DNA of 32,984 nucleotides, from positions 1 to 32,984 of the forward strand of contig JAHIRB010000040.1 in assembly GCA_018818885.1 (NCBI GenBank), in the 5' to 3' direction. The position numbers and the translations under genes are program-made. Shown piece after piece: positions 1 through 1,910 of the stretch; within the stretch, counting starts at the first letter, position 1; the number at the start of each line of letters is the position of its first letter. The stretch is from Patescibacteria group bacterium (GTDB taxonomy: Bacteria; Patescibacteriota; Patescibacteriia; Buchananbacterales; SURF-54). The notes beneath the pieces were generated by a model. It saw only the letters and a list, made by a program, of their open reading frames with translations, did no database searches and had not been told where the DNA came from.

Positions 1-34
1 CTCATTTCTTTGATTTGAGGTAATATGTTGGTAG

Positions 35-102
35 GACATCTCTATATTTGGCTTAATAATTAAGGGGTACTTTATTATTTTACCTAAAAGAGATGTCTTT
101 TT
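35..102 (+). terminator. Intrinsic terminator of a unit entering from the left
   Basis: GACATCTC (35-42) and GAGATGTC (90-97) form a perfect 8-bp stem followed by TTTTT. The long loop holds a small inner hairpin (GGTA with TACC). It ends a transcript that starts outside the window, perhaps another member of the RNA cassette series that follows. Confidence 0.65.
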
Positions 103-150
103 GTATTGTTTAAAACGTTGCACTTCGGAGTAGAATGTACCAATATTAAG

Positions 151-179
151 TTGACTTTTGGCAAGTAATGTGTTATTTT
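151..179 (+). promoter_or_regulatory. Promoter of RNA cassette 1
   Basis: The -35 TTGACT (151-156) and -10 TATTTT (174-179) are separated by exactly 17 bp. The expected start is near 186. Confidence 0.6.
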
Positions 180-368
180 AAATACGCGTGGAGTAAGGAG
201 GATAAATCGCTCATCCTCCAAACCTTATCTTCAGGACGCGAGTCTATTAGGATACTGCAATTTGGACTATTGTCCTTTGACAGAGACCTGGTAAGACAAG
301 GTGTTGATTGTAAGGTGAGCCTGGCGTAGCCAGAAATTCCTAATCCGGCAAATCCTTGAAAGGGGTAC

Positions 369-452
369 ATGCCATTATGCGAACGCGAAGGAGATTCTCC
401 ACCGATTAAGAATCTTTGGGAGGTACGGACTCTTAGAGTTGAGTCCCGGTGA
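369..452 (+). CDS. Possible 27-aa small ORF inside RNA cassette 1
   Basis: ATG at 369 is preceded 3 nt upstream by GAAAGGGG (358-365), and the frame ends at TGA 450-452. The product would begin MPLCEREGDS and is hydrophilic. The frame overlaps hairpins of the proposed structured RNA, so it may be chance. The only support is the purine-rich sequence before the ATG. Confidence 0.2.
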   Translation: MPLCEREGDSPPIKNLWEVRTLRVESR

Positions 453-591
453 ATTGCTAAGCGTGTTTGACACGTAGCGTGCAGCCACACATTATAGGTT
501 CGAATCCAAACCTGCTGACGCAAAGGATCGCGCTCTTAGACAAAGCGTAAACAAGTCTTGAAGGCATTAAGCCTTCTGCAGAAGTCTTTTT

Positions 592-630
592 CCGGGAGCG
601 AGCCTAGCTTGTTCCCGGGATCTTTTTTTT
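592..630 (+). terminator. Terminator of RNA cassette 1
   Basis: The arms at 592-603 and 607-618 form 12 continuous pairs (including G-U) closed by a CTA triloop. Eight T follow from 623. Confidence 0.85.
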
Positions 631-632
631 AT

Positions 633-661
633 TTGACATATTATTTCATATATGATAAATT
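633..661 (+). promoter_or_regulatory. Promoter of RNA cassette 2
   Basis: The consensus -35 TTGACA (633-638), a 17-bp spacer and -10 TAAATT (656-661) begin immediately after the T-run of the previous terminator. Confidence 0.65.
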
Positions 662-730
662 AATTTTTGCTACTTTAGGTTCGTTTTGTTCTGGTTGAAC
701 GTTTAACGTTCACAACCATGGAGGGATTGG

Positions 731-772
731 ATGTTGTTTTATAGGTATCCGATGCAAGTCTTAATTGATTAA
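731..772 (+). CDS. Micro-ORF, 13 aa, in RNA cassette 2
   Basis: GGAGGG (720-725) lies 5 nt upstream of ATG 731. The frame reads MLFYRYPMQVLID and ends at TAA 770-772. It lines up without gaps with the 14-aa micro-ORF of cassette 3: Tyr6, Met8, three aliphatic/aromatic residues at 10-12 and Asp13 correspond. Function unknown. The Shine-Dalgarno is stronger than at most long genes here, but a short frame with a purine-rich leader can arise by chance. Confidence 0.35.
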   Translation: MLFYRYPMQVLID

Positions 773-997
773 CCGTTTTTCCCTATGAAAACCTAGCAGT
801 ACTAGTATCCGCCGAACCTTACTACGACCCCATCAACGGATTGGGTCGACTCCTAATCCCAGTCAACAAAAGTAACTAGGCCAAGGCCAAGCTTGATATA
901 CCTGCCAAGTATGTCATGAACTCGTTAGTAGCCATATATGGTTACACTGGGGGATGTGAGTCACAGAAGGATTTGAGCCTTAAATGGCTCCGCATGC

Positions 998-1034
998 GCC
1001 CCGGACTTTCATAATTTGTCCGGGGGCTCTTTTT
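998..1034 (+). terminator. Terminator of RNA cassette 2
   Basis: GCCCCGGAC (998-1006) pairs with GTCCGGGGGC (1018-1027, one extra G). The run TCTTTTTTT follows. Confidence 0.85.
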
Positions 1035-1058
1035 TTATAAAATAAATCATATAAATCA

Positions 1059-1087
1059 TTGACAAATTTGAGTAATTATGCTAGTAT
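1059..1087 (+). promoter_or_regulatory. Promoter of RNA cassette 3
   Basis: TTGACA (1059-1064), a 17-bp spacer and TAGTAT (1082-1087). The expected start is near 1094. Confidence 0.65.
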
Positions 1088-1127
1088 TTTATTTAACAAA
1101 TCATAAGTATGAAAGGGGGGAAGGAAC

Positions 1128-1172
1128 GTGAGCATTGATGCTTATTGGATGCCGCTCATCTTCGATAAATAG
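1128..1172 (+). CDS. Micro-ORF, 14 aa, in RNA cassette 3
   Basis: The GTG start at 1128 follows the long purine tract AGGGGGGAAGG (1114-1124) at near-ideal spacing. The frame reads MSIDAYWMPLIFDK and ends at TAG 1170-1172. It has the same length and residue pattern as the cassette 2 micro-ORF (Tyr6, Met8, hydrophobic 10-12, Asp13). Function unknown. Confidence 0.35.
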   Translation: MSIDAYWMPLIFDK

Positions 1173-1491
1173 CTTTCTACCAACTAGTACGAGCATAAAA
1201 ACTACTATGCTCATACATATAGGGGGTGAGAAAAAACAAATTGATTATAGTTGTAATGACAGCTTAATCTCCTAATAATGTGAAGTTTTTTCGTTACGGA
1301 AAAGAGATCTAAGTCTCTTTGGTCCAAGACACTCAGGCTCCATGCTCATGTCTTGAGATCGTCTAGCCACGATTGGTTTTGCTCTCCATCAAAACGAGCC
1401 GCTGCTAGTGTGCCGCGTATAAGTACACTTGTCATGATAAGACGTAAAAATCCAGTTACTCACTGATAAGAGTCGGTACTCATCCGTTAAT

Positions 1492-1533
1492 GAGCCTTGC
1501 CTCGAGCGCTAGTTTGCTCGGGGCTCTATTTTT
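1492..1533 (+). terminator. Terminator of RNA cassette 3
   Basis: An outer stem GAGCC (1492-1496) with GGCTC (1522-1526) encloses an inner stem CGAGC (1503-1507) with GCTCG (1516-1520). It is followed by TATTTTTTT. Confidence 0.8.
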
Positions 1534-1562
1534 TTGACAATTTCAAAATTGATATGTAATAT
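1534..1562 (+). promoter_or_regulatory. Promoter of RNA cassette 4
   Basis: TTGACA (1534-1539), a 17-bp spacer and TAATAT (1557-1562). The -35 overlaps the end of the preceding T-run. Confidence 0.7.
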
Positions 1563-1568
1563 ATAAAT

Positions 1569-1799
1569 ACCCTCGCAATGTGCAATTGGCCCTTGCACAT
1601 GCAAGTAAAGTGCTAAAGCAATTTAGCGCTAAATGAGCCATATAAACGGCTCACAAGTAACCATAATGAATAGTATTATAAATTCTTTATGGGTTACTAA
1701 GTTAGAGTGGTCCTGAATCCAAGACCCAAAAAACTGGCAATCCTTTCTTTTTCCCTTTGTGAATGAGCCGCGGACTGAATATCCTGCGGCTCCTTTTTT
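1569..1799 (+). ncRNA. Unidentified structured RNA, cassette 4 (about 230 nt)
   Basis: This short transcript is almost entirely a chain of hairpins: TGTGCAA with TTGCACA (about 1579-1599), GCTAAA with TTTAGC (about 1612-1627), TGAGCC with GGCTCA (about 1635-1654), and AGTAACCATAA with TTATGGGTTACT with one bulged G (about 1659-1700). A mostly unpaired stretch follows, then the terminator. There is no ORF of note and no ribosome-binding site, so it is the best pure ncRNA candidate of the four. I recognise no 6S, SRP or tmRNA signature. Confidence 0.6.
1765..1799 (+). terminator. Terminator of RNA cassette 4
   Basis: GAGCCGCGGA (1765-1774) pairs with TCC(T)GCGGCTC (1782-1792, one bulged T). 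The run CTTTTTT follows. Confidence 0.8.
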
Positions 1800-1818
1800 A
1801 AATAAAAACCCCCCAAAT

Positions 1819-1889
1819 CTGCCGGACCAGGATTTGAACCTGGATCGACGGCTTCAAAGGCCGCTGTCCTACCATTAGACGATCCGGCA
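1819..1889 (-). tRNA. tRNA-Gln (TTG)
   Basis: On the minus strand the acceptor arms TGCCGGA and TCCGGCA pair perfectly. The anticodon loop is CTTTGAA, giving anticodon TTG, and the T-loop is TTCAAAT. CCA is not encoded. The flanks on both sides are complementary (CCCCCAAATC at 1810-1819 with GATTTGGGGG at 1890-1899). The acceptor helix can therefore be extended to about 17 bp or more in the precursor, and the trailer then runs into TTTTT, so the folded precursor may act as its own terminator. The likely promoter is at 2014-2042. Confidence 0.93.
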
Positions 1890-1910
1890 GATTTGGGGGT
1901 TTAATTATTC

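Follow-up and report, generated by a model that had tools for sequence, protein, structure and literature searches.

Between positions 151 and 1799 of the window, by which we mean the whole stretch of 32,984 nucleotides analysed, lie four units on the same strand that we interpret with moderate confidence as independent genes, each for a structured, stand-alone non-coding RNA (ncRNA), and as parts of one accessory island specific to the lineage. The data favour a non-coding RNA island over the other readings of this array, which is ORF-free, GC-raised and structured, has its own promoters and terminators, and gave no Rfam or Pfam match. The initial annotation had suggested a regulatory RNA island or an array of RNA/micropeptide cassettes that continued to the left; the RNA island is the part of that proposal that our data support best, micropeptide cassettes are retained as a rival, and the leftward continuation has been dropped. 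More tentatively, and with some doubt, the units could represent four new structured RNA classes carried as an accessory island, mobile or lineage-specific, whose cargo is RNA and not protein. The presence of four tandem RNA genes, if true, would mean that the reduced genomes of Patescibacteria invest in non-coding RNA, and would provide four new folds. To our knowledge, almost nothing is known about regulatory RNA in Patescibacteria, and a literature search found no paper devoted to the subject.

Architecture of the four units

The window forms the first part of contig C19 (106 kb), which belongs to a metagenome-assembled genome of 1.35 Mb (G000; 34% GC, 98.6% complete). The features of the array and its immediate borders are as follows.

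1-141, minus strand: end of an IS30-type insertion sequence, with the transposase N-terminus reading leftwards off the contig; outside the RNA array
151-179, plus strand: unit 1 promoter, TTGACT-17-TATTTT, TG before the -10 box
186-630, plus strand: predicted unit 1 RNA, about 445 nt; terminator at 590-628
633-661, plus strand: unit 2 promoter, TTGACA-17-TAAATT, TG before the -10 box
668-1037, plus strand: predicted unit 2 RNA, about 370 nt; terminator at about 998-1036
1059-1087, plus strand: unit 3 promoter, TTGACA-17-TAGTAT, TG before the -10 box
1094-1535, plus strand: predicted unit 3 RNA, about 440 nt; terminator at 1499-1534
1534-1562, plus strand: unit 4 promoter, TTGACA-17-TAATAT; the -35 box overlaps the unit 3 T-run
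1569-1800, plus strand: predicted unit 4 RNA, about 230 nt; four consecutive hairpins, terminator at 1765-1799
1818-1890, minus strand: tRNA-Gln(UUG), the right boundary of the array, convergent with unit 4

The four sigma70-type promoters described initially are present between 151 and 1799, all on the plus strand and all with a 17-bp spacer. Exact matches to TTGACA-N17-TANNNT number 175 in the genome, counting both strands, with an expectation of 0.11 per 1.65 kb of one strand; we observe three in the array, each directly 3′ of, or overlapping, a T-run. Four intrinsic terminators were likewise recovered, with stems of -23.7, -13.7, -18.0 and -16.3 kcal/mol for units 1-4, respectively, and a T-run after each. 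A genome-wide scan identified 165 strong terminators, corresponding to an expectation of 0.10 for 1.65 kb on a single strand, and counted three of the four in the array (P about 2e-4); that of unit 3 was missed by the scan and found by a separate promoter/terminator search. The clustering of promoters and terminators is far above the genome background.

The units are closely packed, as had been noticed, with the next promoter starting 0-22 nt past the preceding T-run, and the promoter-to-terminator stretches of four same-strand units do have the proposed lengths of 230-440 nt. The impression that the units are mutually unrelated also holds, as their common features are the promoter and terminator only, with terminator tails that are alike. 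A CRISPR or other repeat-spacer guide array was rejected: there are no regular repeats, and similarity between units is confined to the terminator tails.

From this architecture, each unit would be transcribed from its own sigma70 promoter and end at its own intrinsic terminator, and transcription would presumably be strong because three of the -35 boxes are consensus. The RNAs would accumulate as discrete species and would act in trans, through either base pairing or the binding of protein. The island would lie between the IS30-type element and tRNA-Gln.

Folding and coding potential

The GC content of the array is 37-46%, compared to 34% for the genome. In the GC-IGR method, structured ncRNAs in AT-rich bacteria are sought as long GC-rich intergenic regions (PMC8632094), and the ORF-free, GC-raised array has the profile that this method uses. 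The candidates of that study are, like the units, intergenic, higher in GC than their AT-rich genome, structured, ORF-free and equipped with their own promoter and terminator, whereas the array comprises four unrelated units in tandem, each known from one sequence and without covariation support.

Folding bears out the earlier description of the region as hairpin-rich, as the units are more structured than shuffled sequence and than coding sequence. With terminators included, fold z values are -4.6, -3.2, -3.3 and -5.2 for units 1-4, and the bodies without terminators give -2.6, -2.55, -2.3 and -4.1, whereas 60 coding windows average -0.28 (sd 1.2). For unit 4, the centroid is approximately the minimum-energy structure. 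The reverse strand of the unit bodies folds about equally well, so folding leaves the strand unfixed, and its assignment rests on the promoters and terminators.

We also see no convincing long ORF, in agreement with the initial annotation: none of at least 60 aa occurs on the plus strand of the array. Positions 524-2045 form the longest stretch in the assembly without an ORF of 70 aa, and this stretch reaches leftwards to the insertion sequence end once a low-scoring minus-strand ORF of 116 aa (173-523; codon score strongly negative, at -15.4) is discounted. Three-base periodicity is 0.24-0.30 for units 1, 3 and 4, where the 5th percentile of coding windows is 1.43, and is weak for unit 2 (1.58, p 0.048 against shuffles, which is borderline). 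The units have three of the features looked for in stand-alone ncRNA genes, namely a promoter and terminator of their own, no ORF and excess structure; the codon periodicity and protein relatives looked for in a protein-coding cassette were not found, with unit 2 borderline in its periodicity.

The rival that survives best derives the units from small-protein cassettes, as relics in which the ORFs decayed and the promoters and terminators were kept. Cassettes comprising a promoter, an SD, a small ORF and a terminator do encode small proteins elsewhere in the genome, unit 1 has AAGGAGG at 195-201 with no ATG after it, and the weakly periodic unit 2 contains a frame at 769-1011 whose 81 codons are open apart from one TAG. 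We nevertheless consider such relics unlikely, given that units 1, 3 and 4 are without periodicity and that structure exceeds that of coding sequence in each of the four bodies. A protein search of 381 genomes with the unit 2 frame matched only itself, Pfam gave no match for the translations tried, and it would be odd for all four units to have retained an intact promoter and terminator.

SD-like stretches are seen by inspection near the 5′ ends of units 1-3, and the units might be expressed as SD-led micropeptides (13-14 codons, in units 2 and 3) that are followed by a long structured 3′ region, or as pairs of peptide and RNA resembling type I toxin-antitoxin systems. This is suggested by GGAGGG-5-ATG opening a 13-codon ORF in unit 2, and by a 14-codon ORF starting with GTG and an accompanying SD-like stretch close to the 5′ end of unit 3. 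We judge this reading to be quite improbable, as unit 4 has no SD-led micropeptide ORF, unit 1 lacks a start codon, the peptides do not have the hydrophobic character of toxins, and chance readily yields ORFs this small (the region has 28 of at least 20 aa). A decayed ORF or a micropeptide may still be the explanation above all for unit 2. An origin as cis-regulatory leaders, either attenuators or riboswitches, whose genes were lost or separated is very improbable: the units are predicted structured RNAs with a terminator at the end, and the genome has such leaders, for example at C12:10826, but in the array each terminator leads immediately into the next promoter or, for unit 4, faces the convergent tRNA-Gln, with no regulated gene after any of them on the plus strand, and there was no riboswitch match. 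The leader in question (G000 C12:10826-11101) is T-box-like, with a GGGTGGAACCGCG motif, a promoter and a terminator, as judged by motif and by eye.

Searches for relatives and a positive control

The array had been said to match no recognisable RNA family, and a check with Rfam covariance models indeed gave no match at gathering or at permissive thresholds, over families including tmRNA, RNase P, 6S, SRP, riboswitches, group I/II introns, ROOL, GOLLD and OLE. GOLLD, ROOL and OLE are long structured ncRNAs, some of which occur in mobile or accessory DNA (PMC12286853); the units differ from them in lacking an Rfam match and, at 230-445 nt, are comparable in size to only the shorter of these RNAs. 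The size class and stand-alone gene status of the units are like those of tmRNA and RNase P RNA, but a divergent form of either was ruled out, as the genome has its own copies elsewhere, on contigs C13 and C3.

Relatives for comparison were drawn from the family (n=2 genomes), the order (n=12) and the class (n=381). A search of genome_contigs gave a single relative of the G000 FtsX, from a Candidatus Falkowbacteria MAG (36% identity), by which G000 was placed in the Patescibacteria. The closest FtsX to that of G000 has only 62% identity, and every comparative test is limited because close relatives are missing. When the array was compared by BLAST with genomes of the family, the order and the class (381 genomes), the matches were confined to promoter or terminator fragments, and phages, plasmids and IMG/VR patterns gave no match for the units. 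A covariance model built from the sequence of unit 4 by itself (R1) found no match in the 381 genomes or in the whole of a sister genome (G001), and no tandem array was seen in those long ORF-free gaps of G001 that were read.

Another ORF-less cassette, upstream of traR-lspA (fold z -6.3), was used as a positive control for the homolog searches. The gene traR was found at E <1e-8 in nine order members, and by eye the upstream DNA carries the ncRNA in eight of the nine. Loci in the order members are listed below.

G000 C20:46690-47080, minus strand: traR-lspA ncRNA
L175:1085-1264: traR-lspA ncRNA
L177:1104-1282: traR-lspA ncRNA
L180:1101-1281: traR-lspA ncRNA
L182:1109-1285: traR-lspA ncRNA
L183:1045-1226: traR-lspA ncRNA
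L179:1061-1268: traR-lspA ncRNA

This ncRNA is about 330-370 nt long with a core of 180 nt, and has a TTGACA promoter, a terminator and no ORF. In an alignment of seven sequences, 94.6% of cells are paired, and 22 pairs are changed on both sides, compared to 10.2 (sd 2.2) when shuffled and 2-8 when slid. Included here is a 6-bp kissing helix formed by the loops of two hairpins, which was placed by eye on the same seven-sequence alignment and has three covarying pairs. No family matched in an Rfam search. With its strong covariation, the traR-lspA ncRNA is probably a new stand-alone RNA family conserved in the order.

BLAST of the G000 copy against its relatives finds only a 20-nt A-rich stretch, and a covariance model of the family (R2) recovers this copy at E 0.01, among chance matches with similar scores, so it is called homologous mainly because of synteny. 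As the traR-lspA ncRNA is nearly invisible to BLAST, the absence of BLAST matches does not show that units 1-4 are unique. More generally, ncRNAs of the Patescibacteria group can diverge quickly enough to escape ordinary homology search, and synteny together with covariance models helps to recover them.

The traR-lspA ncRNA resembles the units in its TTGACA promoter, length, terminator and lack of an ORF, and is found in the same genomes, whereas a kissing-loop architecture kept across genera is a feature of its own. The core of R2 was unmatched in units 1-4, where the best plausible match is a 22-nt hairpin at 1191-1212 in unit 3 (GAGCATAAAAACTACTATGCTC); at only 8.1 bits, kinship with the traR-lspA RNA hairpin was set aside as chance. 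An R2 match of 11.0 bits at 1811-2051 was discarded, as it falls in the tRNA region.

Boundaries of the array

A ‘fifth terminator’ at 35-102 had been taken as a sign that the array continues to the left. The hairpin in fact belongs to the IS30-type end (1-141), which is shared with other contig ends and with contig C18, and we therefore rejected it as evidence of leftward continuation. An identical copy of positions 1-141 of the window stands at C20:1-141, and another, in inverted orientation, at the far end of C19 (C19:106342-106482), which is what a break in the assembly at a multicopy element would produce. Contig C18 begins within the same repeat and runs into an HTH_38 domain (E 4e-9). 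We take HTH_38 to be the N-terminal domain of IS30-type transposases, and the IS30 assignment is based on this domain together with what is generally known of the family.

The tip of the element, GTTGCACTTCGGAGTAGAATGTACC, is found at four sites (unit 1, secG, rpsB and a cassette on C32), where the distance to the next TTGAC box is 9 bp at three, including unit 1, and 10 bp at the fourth. Two of the tip-adjacent promoters are those of secG and rpsB-tsf, as judged from the sequences that follow, and at C32:1358-1382 the part in common with the insertion sequence is the 25-bp tip only. This suggests that the IS30-type element inserts beside -35 boxes, i.e. that it is targeted to promoters. It also suggests that the unit 1 promoter is genuine, because its tip-to--35 spacing (9 bp) matches that at the three other promoters (9-10 bp).

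At the right boundary, the gene order ftsE-ftsX-tRNA-Gln is kept across the order, and the sequence beyond tRNA-Gln varies; in sister genome G001, a contig ends exactly at the tRNA-Gln point of this synteny. The 5′ part of tRNA-Gln is partly tandem-duplicated at 1878-1976, with an exact 20-nt repeat at 1878 and 1954 and an inserted hairpin (GTCCGACTACGTCC...GGACTTCGTCGGAC). Further tRNA-like sequences broken by insertions (tRNA-Tyr, tRNA-Cys and another) were seen in G000 at C10:960-1150, C10:1300-1590 and C45:27060-27180, and are either intron-containing or decaying duplicates.

Finally, a repeated 3′ gene end that encodes approximately DVRTxLxKIIxELRxYF was noted in G000 at C32:1307, C32:1976, C48:30635, C35:4525 and C45:19569. 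On C32 and C48 a promoter directly follows this gene end, which is possibly a cassette junction.
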